DNA of 64,000 bases from Magnetovibrio sp. (GTDB taxonomy: Bacteria; Pseudomonadota; Alphaproteobacteria; Rhodospirillales; Magnetovibrionaceae). This document shows, piece by piece, positions 56,155 through 64,000 of this stretch. A model generated the notes under the pieces. That model ran no database searches. It was not told the DNA's origin and worked only from the letters and a program-made list of their open reading frames with translations. The translations under genes and the position numbers were made by a program. The stretch is taken from positions 62,001-126,000 of the forward strand of contig NZ_DATCTF010000007.1 of the NCBI RefSeq assembly GCF_036568125.1. Direction: 5' to 3'. How positions within the stretch are numbered: position 1 is the stretch's first letter; each line of letters begins with the position of its first letter.

Positions 56155-56230
56155 GACCCCTTCGTCTAGAGGCCTAGGACACCGCCCTTTCACGGCGGCA
56201 ACACGGGTTCGAATCCCGTAGGGGTCGCCA
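56155..56230 (+). tRNA. tRNA-Glu (UUC)
   Basis: A complete 76-base cloverleaf including the encoded CCA end. The acceptor arm GACCCCT pairs with AGGGGTC; the anticodon loop CCTTTCA in the stem ACCGC/GCGGC reads UUC; T-arm CGGG-TTCGAAT-CCCG. The last 9 bases (GGGTCGCCA) plus 37 bases downstream recur at 57580, so this gene is the attachment site of the accessory region that follows. Confidence 0.97.
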
Positions 56231-56267
56231 TCTTCCAGACAATTTAAGAATATTGGTTCGTTTCCGC
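56222..56267. repeat. Direct repeat copy A: tRNA-Glu 3' end plus element left end (attL-like)
   Basis: GGGTCGCCA from the tRNA followed by TCTTCCAGACAA, then AAGAATATTGG and TTTCCGC. It matches 57580-57627 at 44 of 46 positions apart from a 2-base insertion; weaker similarity (16 of 24) continues to about 56291. A small hairpin of CGTTTCCG with CGGAACG lies at its right edge in both copies. Confidence 0.85.
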
Positions 56268-56324
56268 AGAAACGGAACGACTGCTTCGTGCCGAATGTCG
56301 GCTTTATGTTCCTGCGAGATCTCT

Positions 56325-57386
56325 CTACCAAATGGGGACCTCGTCCGTGCCTGGTGTCATTGCGGGGCTTGAGCCGACCGGGCATTTCGCGGGATCGAAC
56401 TTGGCGGTCCAGGCCGCGAAATCAAGCGCTTCGGCTGGCCTCATAAGGCAGGCCGGGGTTGACCAGGGATGGCCCAAGTGCAGCAATTGGTGCCCCATTT
56501 CATGGGCCAGCATCGCAGACGCATATGACAGCGCGTCCTTTCTGGTGTAGGTGTCTCCGCTCCGAAGGGCCCGAATTTCAGGATCGTCTGAGACGTAAGG
56601 AAAGAGCGTGACCCACACAGACGCGCCCAGTGCCGATGACGGATTGTACTCTGTGGAACCACCCGTGATGCCGCCGCGCAAGGACGTATGAATGGGCACG
56701 GGAATGTACTCGACACTGGCGACGAGCTGGTTGGTGAGAACGATTTCCGCCTCAATCCCCTGACGCGCCATCAGCGTCCAATATCCGTATTCATTGAGCG
56801 GATAATCGGGGCGTCCCGGAACGGTGCCGATTATCGGGTTTCCGTCGTGAAGTTTGGCGCTGGTCCAGTATGAGAGGCGATTGTCGAAGGTTTCGACGAC
56901 CGCTTTGGAAAATGAGTCGATATCTTCTTTCTCGACTGGCCGGGTAAGGTAGGGGCGGGCGAAGGCAATTTGGTCGGCGAGAGGATCTGTCTGCTTCTCG
57001 ATCTGCTCGATCAAGTTTTTGCGAACCGTTTCCCAGTCGACCTTGCCGTGGCGGAAGTCGCCAATCAGGCCTTTAAACCCATCCGGTTCGCTGCCCACCA
57101 GTTTTGAAAAAACGTCGTCGATGTTCCGAGCGGAGATTTTGTTCGGTATGACGACATCGATACCGAAGTTCTCTTTGATCAAATGTGCGGCGCCAGCAAC
57201 AACGGTCTTAAGTTCGCCAGTCGTGAATTTTGGGAACCGCGGATTTTCAATATAGACGACGCGAGGTGCGATCCGGTTGTCCGTGATAACGGGTATGGAA
57301 ACGAATTTTGCATCTGCTGCATCGGAGCAAACAGGCAATATCGCTGCGCAGACAGCCAGCACACAGGCAAAAAATGGACGAACCAT
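56325..57386 (-). CDS. Exported zinc metallopeptidase-like protein
   Basis: A 353-residue exported protein with signal peptide MVRPFFACVLAVCAAILPVCSDAADA. The zinc motif HEMGHQLLHLGH at about residues 295-306 supplies HExxH and a third His, with a probable Met-turn in CLMRPAEALDF. The spacing to the third ligand is one residue longer than HExxHxxGxxH if the last His is used, so assignment to the metzincins is not exact. The 250 residues before it match nothing I recognise. GGGGAAG lies 8 bases before the ATG. It is the only gene between attachment-like copies A and B. Confidence 0.8.
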   Translation of the reverse strand: MVRPFFACVLAVCAAILPVCSDAADAKFVSIPVITDNRIAPRVVYIENPRFPKFTTGELKTVVAGAAHLIKENFGIDVVIPNKISARNIDDVFSKLVGSEPDGFKGLIGDFRHGKVDWETVRKNLIEQIEKQTDPLADQIAFARPYLTRPVEKEDIDSFSKAVVETFDNRLSYWTSAKLHDGNPIIGTVPGRPDYPLNEYGYWTLMARQGIEAEIVLTNQLVASVEYIPVPIHTSLRGGITGGSTEYNPSSALGASVWVTLFPYVSDDPEIRALRSGDTYTRKDALSYASAMLAHEMGHQLLHLGHPWSTPACLMRPAEALDFAAWTAKFDPAKCPVGSSPAMTPGTDEVPIW

Positions 57387-57550
57387 GGTAGAGCTTCCCC
57401 TTTTGCGACGCCTCCGGATCAAGCTAAAGAGCTTGCTCTCGGAAATCACTCATCCAATTGGCTTAGGGGTCGAAGCGGGCATTGTAGATTTCGGGAGCGA
57501 TGTCTGCTGATGGAGTGTTTTAAGACATAGGCTGCGCCAGTTTTCTGCGG

Positions 57551-57627
57551 ATTTCCCAGTGCCCATCTATCTCCGGTACGGGTCGCCATCTTTTCCAGAC
57601 AATCTAAGAATATTGGATCGTTTCCGC
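57551..57627. repeat. Composite attachment-like site B
   Basis: Left half ATTTCCCAGTGCCCATC (57551-57567) is identical to 62050-62066. After 16 unmatched bases comes the core GGGTCGCCATC (57580-57590), then TTTTCCAGACAA ... TTTCCGC to 57627, matching the tRNA-flanking copy A at 44 of 46 positions. The core is preceded by CCGGTAC, close to the tRNA's CCCGTAG, so more of the T-arm half is retained here. The mosaic is what a junction between two tandem insertions would look like. Confidence 0.8.
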
Positions 57628-57637
57628 GGGCGCGGAA

Positions 57638-57916
57638 TCACGGCTTTGTGCAGTGGTGGTTCAGGTTTCGTGCAGCGCTCAGCAACTTTGTCTCTACGGC
57701 GGTTTGACCACTCTTGTATAGGGACAGGGTGCGAAACTTTGCTTCTAAACATGCACAGCACTGATGCTCCACCTTTGGGCTTACATAGGGGCAATGATCA
57801 CAGGGTTGATTGCTGTGTTGTAAAAAATGAGTCCATGTTTCGAACGCCAGCTGAAAATCACCTTGTTCGATGTGGACGAGCAATTGATTTAGGGGCTGTA
57901 TCTCAAGATCATTCAT
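57638..57916 (-). CDS. Hypothetical Cys/His-rich protein (92 aa) coupled to a PPOX gene
   Basis: A 92-residue soluble protein. The helical N-terminal half (IQPLNQLLVHIEQGDFQLAFETWTHFLQHS) is followed by C-x-x-C (PCDHCPY), then HQCCACLEAKF, suggesting a metal- or redox-active knuckle. Its start lies inside the stop region of the PPOX-family gene (8-base overlap ATGAATGA) with GGAG before it, so it is translationally coupled to that flavoprotein. Family unknown. Confidence 0.7.
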   Translation of the reverse strand: MNDLEIQPLNQLLVHIEQGDFQLAFETWTHFLQHSNQPCDHCPYVSPKVEHQCCACLEAKFRTLSLYKSGQTAVETKLLSAARNLNHHCTKP

Positions 57917-58505
57917 AACCAAGCTCCGCTTCGAGTTCCGCGATCCGCGCATCGCGGACGGCAAGGGCGCGTTCGACGTCTTCGGCATCGAACCGAACGG
58001 GTATGTGCTGTGGGCAATTGACATCCCACGCGGAAATTTCGAAGACGACCACCTGTTCGGCGCGGGCTTGGTCGTCTTGGGGCATAAGTTGTTCGATCAG
58101 TTGTGCGTCGTCTTCGACGATGCGCGCCTCGCCCCAGATCTTGATCCGTTGGCGCTGCGCATAATCGATGAGAAAGATGTGCGCTTTTGCGGTGTCGGCG
58201 AGATTGCCTTGGGTGATGAATTGGCGATTGCCTTTGAGATCGACGAAGGCAAGCGTCGAAGGCCCAATGACCCGAAGAAAGCCGCGCGGACCGCCGCGAT
58301 GTTGAATATAGGGCGCCCCATCGCTTGAAACGGTGGCGATAAAAAAGCTTCGCTGGTCGGCGATGAACGCGGCGAGGTCGTCCGTGATCACCGTTTGCCA
58401 GCCTCCACTTTGCTCCATCCGCCGGTACGCATCACGCGATCCCTTGCGAACCTGGATCGCCTTGACGCTTGGCGTAAATGCGATGTCAGAAACGGGTTTG
58501 ACCAT
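57909..58505 (-). CDS. Pyridoxamine 5'-phosphate oxidase-family (FMN split-barrel) protein
   Basis: A 198-residue FMN-binding split-barrel protein. RSFFIATVSSDGAPYIQHRGGPRGFLRVIGPSTLAFVDLKGNRQFITQGNL is the PPOX class core; KAHIFLIDYAQRQRIKIWGEARIVED follows. It resembles the group annotated general-stress or PPOX class flavoproteins acting on unknown substrates, not PdxH itself. AGGGA lies before the ATG. The C-terminus is a coiled helix (ALAVRDARIAELEAELG). Confidence 0.87.
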   Translation of the reverse strand: MVKPVSDIAFTPSVKAIQVRKGSRDAYRRMEQSGGWQTVITDDLAAFIADQRSFFIATVSSDGAPYIQHRGGPRGFLRVIGPSTLAFVDLKGNRQFITQGNLADTAKAHIFLIDYAQRQRIKIWGEARIVEDDAQLIEQLMPQDDQARAEQVVVFEISAWDVNCPQHIPVRFDAEDVERALAVRDARIAELEAELGYE

Positions 58506-58636
58506 GGCCGCCGTCCCTATAGGCCAAGTTCAGTTGGGCGCATGATGCTCTCCTGAATTGAGCGCAAACTGTAAATTGATAAAGGCGCCGAGGGTCCCGG
58601 CGGGGGGGGGATGCCGGAACCCTCGGGCTTCGTGAA

Positions 58637-59185
58637 CTAGGCGGCGAGAGTTTCGACTCGGGGGAAGTCGATCTCGGTTCCGAGGACCTCGTTCACGTAA
58701 TTCGTCAGGGTGTTCAAGGCGACGTGCGCAACGATTTCGACGATTGCCGCATGGCTGTAGCCTGCGGTTTTCAGATCATCGAGTGCGTTGTCCTGCACTT
58801 GGCCACGATTGCGAGCAATTTCCGCGGCAAAGCGCACCGCCACGTCGGCCTTGGCGTCGGTCGACTGACCCTTGCGGTTCGCGGTCATCTCGACGTCGCT
58901 CAGTTGGGCGAGGTTCTTACCCAGGTAGCTGTGGGCCGCAAGGCAGTAGCCGCAGCCGTTGGCCTCGGCCACAGCCAAAGCGATCCGCTCACGGGTTGCA
59001 GGGTCAAGCTCACCCCCGCCAAGCGCGCTGTTGAGGCCAAGATAGCCTTCGAGCGCAGCGGGGCTGTTGGAGATGATTCGAAACAGGTTGGGAACACTGC
59101 CAAGCTGCTTTTGGACGGCATCGAGCAAACCGTGGGATGCTTTGGGTGCTTCATCGATAGACGCGGGAGTGGGGATGCGGGACAT
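58637..59185 (-). CDS. AhpD-like / carboxymuconolactone decarboxylase-family peroxidase
   Basis: A 182-residue all-helical protein. The CMD/AhpD motif is intact: ALAVAEANGCGYCLAAHSYLGKNL has the C-x-x-C pair and downstream His used in AhpD for peroxide or disulfide reduction; VPNLFRIISNSPAALEGYLGLNSAL is the N-terminal hallmark of peroxidase-related members. Divergent from a LysR regulator gene with 141 bases between, indicating that LysR controls it. Placed with a PPOX flavoprotein, a redox-stress cargo theme is plausible. Confidence 0.9.
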   Translation of the reverse strand: MSRIPTPASIDEAPKASHGLLDAVQKQLGSVPNLFRIISNSPAALEGYLGLNSALGGGELDPATRERIALAVAEANGCGYCLAAHSYLGKNLAQLSDVEMTANRKGQSTDAKADVAVRFAAEIARNRGQVQDNALDDLKTAGYSHAAIVEIVAHVALNTLTNYVNEVLGTEIDFPRVETLAA

Positions 59186-59326
59186 AATGCTTATCCTTTG
59201 CCTTTTAGGGAGCCGTCAGCGGGATTGCCGATGGTCATGGCGAAAAGATAAATAATTTTGGAAAATGGAAGAATATAGATAATATGCAAAATACCATTTC
59301 AAATAATGAAATTATGATCTTGCACA

Positions 59327-60220
59327 ATGGACCGATTACGCGCCCTTGAAGTGTTTGTCGCCGTGGCCGAGGCGGGCTCGCTCGCCGGAGCCGCCAAAGT
59401 CATGTCGATGAGCGCGCCAACGGTGACCCGCGTCCTGGGAAATCTCGAAGCCGATCTCGGCGTACTCCTCTTCCATCGCTCAACCCGGGCGACAACCCTG
59501 ACGGATCCCGGCAGATCTTTTCTGACGGACGCACAGCGTATCCTGGACGATTATCAGGCTTCGAGTGATGCGGCGCGCGGTGCGCACCGAGCGCCGAAAG
59601 GCGTGCTCAGGCTCACGGCGCCGACGCTGTTCGGGCAGGCTTACGTTTCACCGATTCTTCTCGATTTCCTCGATCAGTTTGATGAGGTCGACGCGGAAGC
59701 CATTTATCTTGATCGGGTGGTGAACATTATCGACGAAGGTTTTGACGTGGCGGTTCGCATCGGTGCGCTCACGGATACCAATCTCATGGCCGTACGGGTT
59801 GGCACGGTGCGTCGTGTCGTCTGCGCCGGAGCGGCTTATCTGTCCCAGCATGGCATTCCGCACGTTCCCGGAGATCTCGCCGGACACCGCATCATCGCAG
59901 CGCGGCCGGTTTCGGCCTCTAACGAGTGGAAGTTTGCGGACGGCAAAGCAGTCAAAATCAGCCCGCGGGTCTCGTTCTCATCCGTTCCCGCCGCCATCAC
60001 TGCCGCGAAGTCCGGTTGGGGGCTGACTCGCGTGCTGTCGTACCAAGTCGGCCCCGATCTTGATGCCGGTGATCTGAAGATCGTGCTCAGCGAATACGAA
60101 CCCGAGCCCCTGCCGGTCCACATCGTTCATGCCGAGGGACGCAACGTCTCCGCCAAGGTTCGGGCGTTTGTCGACATAGCTGCGGCAAGGCTGCGAGCAA
60201 ATTCGTTTCTCAATTTGTAG
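59327..60220 (+). CDS. LysR-family transcriptional regulator
   Basis: A 297-residue LTTR. The HTH domain occupies residues 1-60 (RLRALEVFVAVAEAGSLAGAAKVMSMSAPTVTRVLGNLEADLGVLLFHRSTR) and the effector domain the rest, with KGVLRLTAPTLFGQAYVSPILLDFL. It is divergent from the AhpD-like gene; the AT-rich 141-base interval is the shared control region. Ligand or signal not visible. Confidence 0.93.
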   Translation: MDRLRALEVFVAVAEAGSLAGAAKVMSMSAPTVTRVLGNLEADLGVLLFHRSTRATTLTDPGRSFLTDAQRILDDYQASSDAARGAHRAPKGVLRLTAPTLFGQAYVSPILLDFLDQFDEVDAEAIYLDRVVNIIDEGFDVAVRIGALTDTNLMAVRVGTVRRVVCAGAAYLSQHGIPHVPGDLAGHRIIAARPVSASNEWKFADGKAVKISPRVSFSSVPAAITAAKSGWGLTRVLSYQVGPDLDAGDLKIVLSEYEPEPLPVHIVHAEGRNVSAKVRAFVDIAAARLRANSFLNL

Positions 60221-60306
60221 TGTCGAAGCGCGCTCACGGATATCCTTTGTATTCGTAAGGATTGGCTTCATGATCGGGGATCGCGACCTCTGGGTGTCTG
60301 TTAGAT

Positions 60307-60792
60307 ATGAGAATGAAGACTTCTCCACGGCTTTCCTTCGGGCGTCTGTCCGACATTCCGCCCGATCAAATCATTGCACACATGTCCGAGCCCCGCATTG
60401 CGGAGCATATGCCCCTCCTTACGTATCGATGGGATCACGAGGCTCTCGCGCAATTTCTCGCGGCAAAGGAACAGTGTTGGCGGCGTGATGGGTTGGGGCA
60501 TTGGGCCATTCTCTGCGACGGCGGATATGTCGGATGGGGCGGGTTTCAAAAAGAAGGTGATGAATGGGATTTCGGATTGGTGCTGAAGTCCGAGTGTTTT
60601 GGTCTAGGGCCACGGATCTTCAAGAAGGCGTTGGAGTTTGCCAAGGCTGATGCGCGTATTCCGTATGTTACCTTTCTCCTGCCGCCATCACGCAAACGTC
60701 TGCGGGGACTTGCAAGACTAGGTGCTCAGTTCGTCGGAGAGGTTGAGCACGATGGCGCTTGCTTCTTGAAGTATCGACTGCAGACCAACTAG
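60307..60792 (+). CDS. GNAT-family N-acetyltransferase
   Basis: A 161-residue acetyltransferase of the RimJ/RimL-like type: LSFGRLSDIPPDQIIAHMSEPRIAEHMPLL at the start, GYVGWGGFQKEGDEWDFGLVL, and a glycine-containing CoA loop LGPRIFKKALEFAKADARI; the final RGLARLGAQFVGEVEHDGA is a usual C-terminal piece. A-T-G-A-G-A-A-T-G gives two possible starts three codons apart. Acceptor unknown. Confidence 0.82.
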   Translation: MRMKTSPRLSFGRLSDIPPDQIIAHMSEPRIAEHMPLLTYRWDHEALAQFLAAKEQCWRRDGLGHWAILCDGGYVGWGGFQKEGDEWDFGLVLKSECFGLGPRIFKKALEFAKADARIPYVTFLLPPSRKRLRGLARLGAQFVGEVEHDGACFLKYRLQTN

Positions 60793-60924
60793 CCGTCGTT
60801 TAGAGCTGCACGTGTTTGCACAGGCATGCAAAGCGATAAGCTGAGCTTATGCTCAGCATTTCTCCGTGCTTATCAAACGGTTCCTTTCTCCTTCGCGGAG
60901 CGGTCTTGGTGTGCAGAGGGCGGG

Positions 60925-61974
60925 TTAGCGCCGTTCGTACCAGCCTTTGGTGGCGTTGACGATCTTCACCACCGACAACATCACCGGGACTTCGACCAAA
61001 ACGCCGACCACGGTCGCCAGCGCCGCGCCGCTGTCAAATCCAAACAGGCTGATGGCGGCGGCGACGGCCAGTTCGAAAAAGTTGCTGGCGCCGATCAGCG
61101 CCGACGGCGCGGCGACGTTATGGCTTTCCCCGACGAACCGGTTGAGCAGGTACGCCAGCCCCGAGTTGAAATAGACCTGAATCAGGATCGGCACGGCCAA
61201 AATGGCGATGATCAACGGCTGGTCGATGATCTGGCCGCCCTGAAACCCGAACAGCAGCACCAGCGTCACCAACAGGGCGCTGATGGACACAGGATCGAGG
61301 ATATGCAGGACGCGTTCCAGACGTTCAGGACCGCCCATGGCCAAAAGGTATTTACGGATCATCTGGGCGATGGCCACCGGCACGACGATATAAATCAGCA
61401 CCGACACGAATAGCGTGGCCCATGGCACCGTAATGGCTGAAAGGCCAAGCAGCAGGCCGACGATGGGGGCGAAGGCGAAGATCATGATGACGTCGTTGAG
61501 CGCGACCTGGCTGAGCGTGAAGTGGGGCTCGCCGTCGCTCAGATGGCTCCACACGAACACCATCGCCGTGCACGGTGCGGCGGCCAGAATGATCAGACCG
61601 GCTATGTAGGACTCGATTTGCCCGGCGGGCAGGTAGGGGGCCAGCAGGTGGCCGATGAACAGCCAGCCGAGCAGCGCCATGGAAAACGGTTTCACCGCCC
61701 AGTTGACGAACAGCGTCACGCCGATGCCGCGCCAATGTTCGCGCACCCGGTTCAGTGCGCCGAAATCGATCTTCAGCAGCATCGGGACGATCATCAGCCA
61801 GATCAGGATGGCCACGGGCAAATTGACCTTGGCGATTTCCATGGCGCCGATCGCTTGGAATGGTTGGGGAAAGGCCGAGCCCAACGCAATGCCGATAACG
61901 ATGCAGAGCGCGACCCATAAGGTCAGGTATCGTCCGAATAGGCCTAAAGCCGCAGTGTTTTTGGAGGAAGACAT
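60925..61974 (-). CDS. acr3: ACR3-family arsenite efflux transporter
   Basis: A 349-residue inner-membrane arsenite (and antimonite) exporter with about ten helices. Family segments: VNLPVAILIWLMIVPMLLKIDF, NWAVKPFSMALLGWLFI, the conserved Cys in LAAAPCTAMVFVWSHLSDGEPHFTLSQVALND, and LIGASNFFELAVAAAISLFG with its catalytic Glu. Full length. No arsR, arsC or arsH is adjacent, which is unusual; regulation and arsenate reduction must come from elsewhere. It is the last gene before attachment-like copy C. Confidence 0.93.
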   Translation of the reverse strand: MSSSKNTAALGLFGRYLTLWVALCIVIGIALGSAFPQPFQAIGAMEIAKVNLPVAILIWLMIVPMLLKIDFGALNRVREHWRGIGVTLFVNWAVKPFSMALLGWLFIGHLLAPYLPAGQIESYIAGLIILAAAPCTAMVFVWSHLSDGEPHFTLSQVALNDVIMIFAFAPIVGLLLGLSAITVPWATLFVSVLIYIVVPVAIAQMIRKYLLAMGGPERLERVLHILDPVSISALLVTLVLLFGFQGGQIIDQPLIIAILAVPILIQVYFNSGLAYLLNRFVGESHNVAAPSALIGASNFFELAVAAAISLFGFDSGAALATVVGVLVEVPVMLSVVKIVNATKGWYERR

Positions 61975-62049
61975 TGGTCATTCCGTGTGAGTGAACGTTG
62001 GTGGAATCCAAGTGTAGCTTGAATTTAAACGTATCCCAATTTCACACAA

Positions 62050-62089
62050 ATTTCCCAGTGCCCATCGAGTTTTTTTGGGGGGCGCCATC
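62050..62089. repeat. Attachment-like site C (right boundary)
   Basis: ATTTCCCAGTGCCCATC (62050-62066) is identical to 57551-57567; after 16 unmatched bases comes CGCCATC (62083-62089), at exactly the same distance as in copy B. Upstream similarity to B continues weakly (11 of 18). To the right nothing resembles copies A or B, as expected of the original right flank or of a diverged neighbour element. Confidence 0.75.
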
Positions 62090-62182
62090 CGACGATTACG
62101 AAAGGCAAGCCCTTCCAAAACTTAGGTCACGTTTAAGGTCTAATGTGGACCAAACCCTGGGTCTCTTGCCGCATAATGTCAC

Positions 62183-64000
62183 CTACTGATTATCGTTTAC
62201 GGGTGTAATGGTGAGGATCGCCTTTCCGTCATTCTTGCCGTAGGTCCAAGAATAAGGCAGCGCCCAATTTCTTCCCAAGCCAAGCCCGAATACGGCATCA
62301 TTGACGTATAAAAACAGCTCACCATCCGATCTTGCCTTGTATTCATTCAATCCCGATCCGATGACAATTTCTTCATTTCCTGCGTTATCGATGCGGCCCA
62401 TGAGTTTCAGCCAAGGTTCCGAAATTCGCCGCCGAAACGGAACCCACAAACTCATTGCAAGATTGGGGCTCTCGAATCCGTTCGGGGTGGTGGATTGGTA
62501 AGGGCCGTCGGTCCAACGTGTGCGCTTCACCTGGAAGCTATAGGTGCTTCCTTTTTTCAAAGTTATTCCTGTTGCGAAGCAGGGATCGCTGATATCGAAG
62601 GTGACAGGTTGGGGCCCGGTAAGAGCCGTGCCCCCCGTGTTGTGACACAGAAAACCCAAGGCACTGCGAGCATAAAACACGGAGCGATCAGCAAAGAAAA
62701 CCAACACCGCCAGAATGGCAAGCAAAACTATAAAAGCCAGTGCCCACTTCACCGCTGTGCGTAATTTTGAGCGGGCAGCACCGCGTAGATTCGAGGTGCA
62801 GGTGGCTTTCCATATGGGCGGGCTGCCCTTGCCCTTTAACGCGGCCCAAGCATCCATGGCCTTTTGTTGTGTGGCTCTATAAGAGAAGCTCTTCAAAATA
62901 AAAAAGACGATGAATATGGCGATAAACGACCATAGCCATCCCGGGTTCTGTCGAAGAACTTCAAACCAAGGGGCAGCAAAGTCGGGGAGGGAGGTCATCG
63001 CCAACTCAAAAATGGGATCTAATGCGCAGGCGGACCCGATGCAAATTCCACCCTTGTCCCAATCAACGAATGGTAAAAAAGGCAACAAAATCAGACTGCT
63101 GGTGGCCACCAACAGGGCGGCATAGAGCCATCGTCGCCAATAGATTACATCCAGCGCCAGGTTCATGGCGTCGGCCCGCGCCGTGCTTTGCTGCGGGGTT
63201 TCGAAGGTAGGTGGCGTCCCCCGGGTGGAGACGACCTCGTAGGATGCGGGCAAGCCGGTGGGGGCGTAGGGAACGACATTGTCTTGAATTCGTTCCAGAA
63301 CGCCACGATGAATTTTGGGTTTTTTGATCCGCACATCATTGTCTGGATCGTTACAAAGGAAATCGATACTGCGCGGTTTGTAGCGGTAATAGGCTGCGAA
63401 TCCGGCGCGGGAATCGTGTTGCAGGCCGTGCCAATCGGAAAGCGCCTCATACTCGTCACGGACACGTTGAATGAAATGTAGTCCGGGTCCGTCCTCAGTG
63501 GCGGGTTCGACTTTGGACATCATCCAGTCCAGGGGCACCAACGACAGGTCGTTCATGGAATAGCCGCCACCGACATCGGAATGCACGCCGGTAAACCAGA
63601 CTTGTTCAATTCGATTGGCTTGGACTTCCCCTTCTGCTGCCAGGGTTTCTTCTTGGCTTTCGTCCCACAGGACAGGGTGAAACGTATGCCGCTCGTCATC
63701 GATGGATATGGCGTGACAGGCACGTTTGACACGCGGCGAAAGTCGCTGATCGCAAAAGCGAAGGGGAAAAATGAGCTTGTCCCAAAGGTAGGTTAGTTCG
63801 TCAATGGGCAGGCCGTAGGCATCAACGGTATCCCATACGCCGATGAACTCGATTTCAGGCTTTACGTTATCTTGTTGGATAGGCTTGGCGGGGCGAATGG
63901 ATCGATATGCGCGATAGAGAAGGCCGCTCTTAAATTTAGAACGGTTCGCGCTGAAAACTCTCCTCGCTTCTTTGTGCAAGTCCTCTTCATTTTTGTAGTT
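62183..64000 (-). CDS. DUF2235 alpha/beta hydrolase-domain protein with membrane helices, 5' truncated
   Basis: The frame is open to the right window edge, so the N-terminus, including any GxSxG nucleophile motif, is missing. The visible part has the DUF2235 segments EFIGVWDTVDAYG, RFCDQRLSPRVKRACHAISIDDERHTFHPVLWDE and WFTGVHSDVGGGYSMNDLSLVPLDWM, the Asp/His side of a Tle1-type lipase. Then come three hydrophobic helices (LYAALLVATSSLILLPFL, WLWSFIAIFIVFFILKSF, WALAFIVLLAILAVLVFFA) and a C-terminal beta-rich domain of about 170 residues. Tle1 effectors of type VI secretion share the hydrolase core, but no Vgr, PAAR or immunity gene is visible, so an effector role is unproven. Confidence 0.82.
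   Translation of the reverse strand, partial: NYKNEEDLHKEARRVFSANRSKFKSGLLYRAYRSIRPAKPIQQDNVKPEIEFIGVWDTVDAYGLPIDELTYLWDKLIFPLRFCDQRLSPRVKRACHAISIDDERHTFHPVLWDESQEETLAAEGEVQANRIEQVWFTGVHSDVGGGYSMNDLSLVPLDWMMSKVEPATEDGPGLHFIQRVRDEYEALSDWHGLQHDSRAGFAAYYRYKPRSIDFLCNDPDNDVRIKKPKIHRGVLERIQDNVVPYAPTGLPASYEVVSTRGTPPTFETPQQSTARADAMNLALDVIYWRRWLYAALLVATSSLILLPFLPFVDWDKGGICIGSACALDPIFELAMTSLPDFAAPWFEVLRQNPGWLWSFIAIFIVFFILKSFSYRATQQKAMDAWAALKGKGSPPIWKATCTSNLRGAARSKLRTAVKWALAFIVLLAILAVLVFFADRSVFYARSALGFLCHNTGGTALTGPQPVTFDISDPCFATGITLKKGSTYSFQVKRTRWTDGPYQSTTPNGFESPNLAMSLWVPFRRRISEPWLKLMGRIDNAGNEEIVIGSGLNEYKARSDGELFLYVNDAVFGLGLGRNWALPYSWTYGKNDGKAILTITPVNDNQ

Follow-up and report, generated by a model that had tools for sequence, protein, structure and literature searches.

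A window of 64,000 nucleotides from Magnetovibrio sp. (positions 62001 to 126000 of contig C7 in this genome, here G000; other genomes and contigs bear G and C numbers likewise) carries two small cargo units, unit 1 and unit 2, stacked head to tail behind a tRNA-Glu(TTC) gene. We consider it probable, at roughly two chances in three, that both belong, without a recombinase of their own, to a family of elements that insert at tRNA 3' ends by means of a CcrB-like large serine recombinase (LSR). This reading is carried by the anatomy of the units, by the likeness of their right-hand ends to a site that recurs in this family, by LSR reading frames that run across tRNA ends, and by one LSR fragment that is joined to the same kind of peptide tail that the unit ends encode.

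Two units without a recombinase behind one tRNA gene

An earlier description of this DNA, made from its letters and called here the sequence-only reading, had proposed three attachment-like sites, of which A and B share a sequence X and B and C a sequence Y, outlining units of 1.36 and 4.5 kb. This pattern was confirmed: the cores of A, B and C lie at positions 56226, 57584 and 62083, hence 1358 and 4499 bases apart (Table 1). Sites A and B align with 62 of 75 columns identical, 11 mismatches and one 2-base gap (score 84, where 500 shuffles reached no more than 20; BLAST E 5.9e-16), and the 44 of 46 matching positions originally given for X are reached if that gap is allowed. Y (ATTTCCCAGTGCCCATC) is identical at all 17 positions in B and C, its runner-up in the 82 kb of the contig that were scanned matching at 14 of 17, and CGCCATC follows it at the same distance in both copies, just as had been described. 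The core common to A and B comprises 13 bases at the extreme end of the tRNA gene. The units have G+C contents of 54.7% and 57.3%, and the stretches on either side 59-60%.

That neither unit holds an integrase or transposase was borne out by a Pfam scan of the seven open reading frames (ORFs) between A and C, which returned no recombinase, no transposase and no conjugation gene. Contig C7 likewise has no match to Phage_integrase (PF00589), which has 10 in the whole genome, or to the LSR family PF07508, which has a single one, on C10. Because no LSR gene is aboard, the units are at most derivatives of CcrB-like LSR elements and not full members. Both keep an attL and an attR without integration genes, as is characteristic of cis-mobilizable elements (CIMEs), and Pfam assignments and alignments together support two adjoining units at one tRNA gene with related ends and differing contents.

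Table 1. Features of the tRNA-Glu locus (window coordinates).
Feature	Position	Strand	Remarks
tRNA-Glu(TTC)	56155..56230	+	ARAGORN; integration target, 3' end provides the core
Site A	56219..56291	+	core at tRNA 3' end plus X; left end of unit 1
Unit 1 cargo, sole gene, 374 aa	56325..57449	-	HEMGH (HExxH type) in translation; no Pfam or NCBIfam family
Site B	57551..57590	+	core preceded by Y, which closes unit 1 on the right; on the minus strand WRPVPEIDGHWEIRRKLAQPMS, then stop
Second X copy	57591..57651	+	left end of unit 2
Unit 2 ORF, 128 aa	57638..58024	-	no family
Unit 2 pyridoxamine-oxidase-like (PPOX-type) flavoprotein	57909..58505	-	Pfam above cut-off, NCBIfam below cut-off
Unit 2 AhpD/CMD-like protein	58637..59185	-	Pfam, NCBIfam
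Unit 2 LysR regulator	59327..60220	+	Pfam
Unit 2 GNAT-like acetyltransferase	60307..60792	+	Pfam
Unit 2 ACR3 arsenite efflux transporter	60925..61974	-	NCBIfam TIGR00832 above cut-off
Site C	62050..62089	+	right end of unit 2, with Y and a degenerate core; on the minus strand WRPPKKLDGHWEICVKLGYV, then stop
Candidate left arm of a further, different element	62116..62146	+	22/31 against an arm in G010; weak
Tle1-like phospholipase gene (type VI secretion system)	62183..64000	-	beyond C; runs off the window

The right-hand ends resemble exchanged recombinase tails

On the minus strand, the Y-plus-core sites encode brief C-terminal tails that follow the pattern W(R/W)A..(D/E)(E/K)DG(H/N)W.... and end in a stop. 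A search with this pattern gathered 21 distinct tails, a count that is not independent, since most of the loci had been picked by DNA models. G000 itself has another such tail at 152438 on C10, some 8.2 kb beyond a tRNA-Lys gene; this tail reads WWANEDKDGHWVLLLHLE before its stop. Immediately behind that tRNA-Lys is an LSR gene (573 aa from its listed start). It points at the tRNA, and its end, ...GVPSFVPKWWAHKDSNLGPAD, falls within the antisense of the tRNA; in a circular form of the element, LSR and distant tail would join at WWA. The protein has the three LSR domains of Pfam, and its best NCBIfam match is CcrB, the recombinase of staphylococcal cassette chromosome (SCC) elements (E 9.9e-51, below the model's cut-off). 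The whole stretch, G000:C10:144142-152477, some 8.3 kb in length, appears to be a complete LSR element and also carries a Rep-like gene.

In another genome, a fragment on G315:C15 encodes 50 residues from the C terminus of an LSR. They match the LSR of G020 at 64% identity up to WR and then give way to a Y tail, ALSEEDGHWTCAISLP and a stop, at the place where integrated LSRs have tRNA antisense. Further LSR genes end over a tRNA-Arg (G020 and Sinorhizobium meliloti pSymB) or a tRNA-Thr (a Sphingomonas plasmid), and two plasmid LSRs, from Enterobacter and Brevundimonas, agree up to KWR and diverge after it. LSRs of the genome set are 34-72% identical to that of C10. The Rep-like neighbour is common to C10, G066 (57% identical) and G020:C30 (36%), and a sub-threshold match to Rep_trans was found in the G066 protein only. 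Searched by itself, the tail peptide had no match in phages and two plasmid matches at E 4 and 7, which were not used.

Among the 22 ORFs listed, four end in ...GFEP..FRL, over tRNA-Met in two cases; apart from those with a W(R/W) end, considered below, the others are cut, different or, in one case, not an LSR. This second end type, ...GFEPTTFRL or ...FERATFRL, overlaps tRNA-Met in G019 and G315.

X can be read along similar lines. At site A, its minus strand is an open frame for 42 codons before the core, the first of which overlap the end of the cargo gene, and it enters the tRNA in the LSR register (...LRKRTNILKLSGR, then WRPLRDSN...). X may be a leftover 3' end of an LSR gene, which this register would fit. 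At B, a similar peptide is encoded out of register, owing to the 2-base length change.

Taken together, these features suggest how an intact member might be built. Its LSR gene would sit at the tRNA side and read toward the tRNA, with its last codons crossing the core, which is the reverse complement of the tRNA's ...CCA end, read as W-R or W-W. In the circle, the gene would end in the Y tail; on integration, this tail would be left at the far end of the element and the LSR would gain a new C terminus from tRNA antisense, so that the Y end of an integrated unit looks like the severed C terminus of its former recombinase. Units 1 and 2 would have lost the LSR, would probably have arrived one after the other through an LSR present in the cell, and, if mobile still, would now move only in trans. 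We also entertain, although we find it rather doubtful, a cassette-like system in which units of one gene or more, each closed by Y plus core, are stacked behind tRNA genes and moved in trans by full elements (here that of C10), and in which the swapped tail could mark or tune the integrated state.

Distribution of the Y-plus-core site

In a DNA search with site B across 317 genomes of the order, the only true match outside G000 was in G011, a Rhodospirillaceae metagenome-assembled genome; two further weak rows, within tRNA-Glu genes of G273 and in apparently coding DNA of G121, were not copies by eye. On contig C252 of G011 (JAOUJU010000054.1), three cores enclose two intervals, of about 1.0 and 1.1 kb, each of which holds a single methyltransferase gene; the first core lacks Y. 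In the same genome, two cores of tRNA-Glu-end type, on C64 and C252, are both preceded by a nearly identical stretch of about 90 bases that contains a 10-base inverted repeat; on C64 this stretch comes after a pentapeptide-repeat gene, and past the cores the DNA differs.

More distant relatives were sought with sequence-only site models. R1, built on five sites, gave weak matches in other genera amid many chance ones, and the weak matches share Y and core. R2, built on 10 sites, matched at E<=0.02 in 43 of 314 genomes and below 1e-4 at 19 places, 10 of them training sites. R3 was built on 14 sites from other genera that R1 and R2 had previously found; because these two models contained the sites of G000, the E-values of R3 are flattering and the test is only partly independent. 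Across 18 sources from G000 and G011 (259,520 bases), R3 found five distinct places at E<=1: the C10 tail (4e-8), site B (1.2e-5), two in G011 (0.0035 and 0.006) and site C (0.017). It missed site A and the G011 cores at C252:109 and 1108. In 25 further sources its only matches were pairs in G020:C30 and G066:C33, with none at the tRNA-Glu loci of relatives.

Small tandem units recur at these places. In G066:C33, an LSR gene with its neighbours is followed by Y plus core, a 0.8-kb unit with one GNAT gene and a second Y plus core, with no tRNA gene in the contig; the unit of G067:C25 measures 0.46 kb and contains one RRM gene, and that of G020:C30 measures 1.66 kb. At all five loci with spacings below 5 kb (those of G000, G011, G066, G067 and G020:C30), the sites share one orientation.

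Searches elsewhere returned little. The X pattern matched eight stretches in a collection of genome contigs that may omit G000, of which G011 alone is plausible and seven look like chance coding matches, and two stretches in IMG/VR, both chance-like and coding; a shorter X pattern matched four related viral contigs that are coding by eye, and Y patterns had no match in IMG/VR. Rfam placed nothing on the sites of ten loci; its matches, to a tRNA and, below threshold, to cspA, lie outside the sites.

The tRNA-Glu flank in relatives

The sequence-only reading had suggested aligning the tRNA-Glu flank in related genomes, and we read it in nine of them, four being the congeners G002-G005 (the fifth congener, G001, had no tRNA-Glu match). 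Gene order was not conserved, and none of the nine carries the units. The gene upstream of the tRNA, which we take to be phosphofructokinase-like, was found in five of the nine within the short upstream stretches fetched; the DNA 3' of the tRNA differs. By eye, a common hairpin terminator stands directly 3' of the tRNA in G002, G007 and G008, and a different hairpin in G021; a pattern search from 53000 to the end of C7 (numbering as in Table 1) did not find the common one. Gene order shared with congeners resumes only at 67062 (G005) or 68202 (G003). These flank differences and the late return of common gene order indicate that the locus is variable.

Other notable arrangements occur at tRNA-Glu genes of G000 and its relatives. 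A second tRNA-Glu of G000 is followed by a 35.6-kb island (G000:C19:166975-202661). A tyrosine integrase lies close to the right end of the island, and some 44 bases of the tRNA 3' end are duplicated; the hairpin of G002, G007 and G008 also lies 3' of the displaced tRNA half of this island. In G010:C36, tRNA-Glu carries an element with a tyrosine integrase, behind which stands, in tandem, the left arm of an element of the C19 type. In G002:C22 (940-5600 of the stretch read), the tRNA-Glu and terminator are followed by a LonB-like protease, an amino acid permease gene and, about 4.6 kb on, a decayed tRNA half; no Phage_integrase match was found on that contig.

DNA 3' of site C faintly resembles the left arm seen in G010 (22 of 31 bases; the best of three shuffles gave 18-20), and the array may extend past C, its right border lying somewhere between 62.09 and 67.06 kb.

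Alternatives and points of doubt

The sequence-only reading had looked to a tyrosine recombinase as the missing enzyme, and the units could be CIMEs of an integrative and conjugative or integrative and mobilizable element (ICE or IME) with a tyrosine integrase, like the C19 island or the G010 element. These target the same tRNA type, the tyrosine integrase of C19 is close to the right end of that island, and in G010 a tRNA-Glu core has a left arm of the C19 type behind it (a G010 probe matches at 31/31 there and 29/31 in C19), as, faintly, does site C. However, A and B share a core of 13 bases right at the tRNA end, and C19 has one of about 44; Y is absent from the tRNA-Glu stretches of relatives, and among 18 genomes of the family site B DNA was found elsewhere only in G011. 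Nor did the proposed search for tyrosine recombinases with matching attachment sites yield candidates: the five non-Xer integrase loci of G000 that were scanned (three of them with tRNA-Val, -Thr or -Ser within) and its XerC locus have no convincing X or Y arm. The C19 island had no R3 match, and integrase loci of relatives were scanned in part for such arms. Since Y instead resembles the right end of the LSR family, as seen in the tails and with R3, we regard a CcrB-like LSR as the most likely missing enzyme and a tyrosine-integrase origin as quite unlikely.

Two other recombination systems were considered and rejected. Seven sites showed no attC-like folding of the kind found in integrons (z-scores of -1.52 to 0.87 against shuffles), and an XerCD-dif-like module was dismissed by eye, the site having nothing of the appearance of a dif half site.

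A and B, and likewise B and C, might not delimit separate insertions at all if a single decayed element had its ends duplicated by later rearrangement. Just two units are present in one genome, with X twice and Y twice, as duplication could give; the cargo of units 1 and 2 differs, however, and small tandem units with the same site also occur in G011, G066, G067 and G020, which makes this origin unlikely. We judge it very improbable that Y plus core is a dispersed intergenic repeat or a short coding remnant with no role in integration. The condition named at the outset as refuting integration, a dispersed repeat unconnected to tRNA genes, applies in part outside G000: one G011 copy lies behind phoB, copies are scattered among the g8 genomes, and 19 of 21 sites have no tRNA gene in the stretch read. 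Against this, LSR frames cross exactly such cores, and on C7, on C10 (tRNA-Lys, 9 bases) and in G112 (tRNA-Arg 6.2 kb away, 11 bases) the end of the core resembles that of a tRNA from the genome in question.

Several observations nevertheless weigh against units 1 and 2 belonging to a tRNA-targeting LSR family, all within the limits set by draft genomes of many contigs. A tRNA gene stands within the DNA read, at most some 10 kb to either side and less near contig ends, at only two of 21 wider-family sites, those of C10 and G112, and outside C7 few bases, the 9 and 11 just mentioned, are common to core and tRNA by eye. Site C is weak as a member of the wider family, given its R3 value. The phoB copy of Y plus core in G011 has as its neighbour the sole phoU of that genome, a draft in which no tRNA-Glu gene was seen. 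The site of G314 adjoins a tyrosine integrase; its core is identical to 20 bases in a tRNA-Glu from another family, that of G273, and differs from the one tRNA-Glu read in its own genus. No LSR (PF07508) was found in G314 or G011. As for the recombinases themselves, only five of the 22 listed ORFs have the W(R/W) type of end, the LSR of G066 (443 aa) ends before the W-R stretch, the searches gave no intact LSR whose C terminus resembles X, and X peptides had no convincing match to two LSRs or to plasmids.

Cargo and neighbouring genes

The single gene of unit 1 has matches in 10 of the 317 genomes including G000, and in none of the five congeners. In eight of the nine other genomes, the surroundings of the homologue were read: a tRNA gene lies in two of the eight stretches and adjoins the homologue in one (tRNA-Leu, without a duplicated end), so that these places lend no support to a mobile unit there. 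PADLOC had no match among eight proteins. The Tle1-like gene beyond site C falls in the stretch up to about 67 kb that is absent from the relatives read.

Comparison with known systems

Tycheposons and integron cassettes likewise bring small cargo units to a repeated site, with other recombinases; the sites described here differ from those of integron cassettes in having no folded attC-like structure. The integrases of phage Mx8 and of SSV are tyrosine integrases, unlike the serine LSR here. They are alike in that the integrase gene extends across attP (PMC4383910).

Nearer counterparts are the ssrA islands of Dehalococcoides, whose serine integrase DsiB has been compared with CcrB and lies next to attL; these islands stand in tandem, their direct repeat immediately preceded by a conserved motif, and 15 of 31 have no integration module (PMC3146451). 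They share with the units a CcrB-related serine integrase, an RNA-gene 3' end as target, tandem arrangement and integration-less members, and differ in that the tmRNA gene is given as their only target, against several tRNAs and units down to one gene here (PMC3146451). In the present family, moreover, the LSR gene itself crosses the core, which may be a difference from DsiB. Pseudo-SCC and SCC composite islands of staphylococci also include units without ccr, in tandem with relatives at the 3' end of one gene, though their target is orfX and not a tRNA, in another host phylum (PMC6243372). The link to SCC is drawn by CcrB as best NCBIfam match of the C10 LSR, if below cut-off. CIMEs, too, keep attL and attR after losing their integration genes and can accrete at attR, and differ in being defined as decayed ICEs or IMEs, whereas no conjugation gene is present among the seven ORFs here (PMC5704250).

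The units can thus hardly be called a little-described class, as had been suggested, with ssrA islands, pseudo-SCC elements and CIMEs being of the same kind (PMC3146451, PMC6243372, PMC5704250). Among the matches listed in a search of open-access titles and abstract beginnings, which is no proof of absence, there was no paper on a tRNA-targeting LSR with an exchanged C terminus. Small recombinase-less islands are difficult to account for; if our reading holds, the missing enzyme of such an island can be proposed from its end sequence alone, and the tail motif can serve as a tag for finding decayed or trans-dependent units. It also points to serine recombinases that use several tRNA genes; according to a 2014 database paper, such targets were not known for them. 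Tandem recombinase-less units are already known from these systems; the several tRNA targets, the swapped tail and the single-gene units are the new aspects of the family described here.

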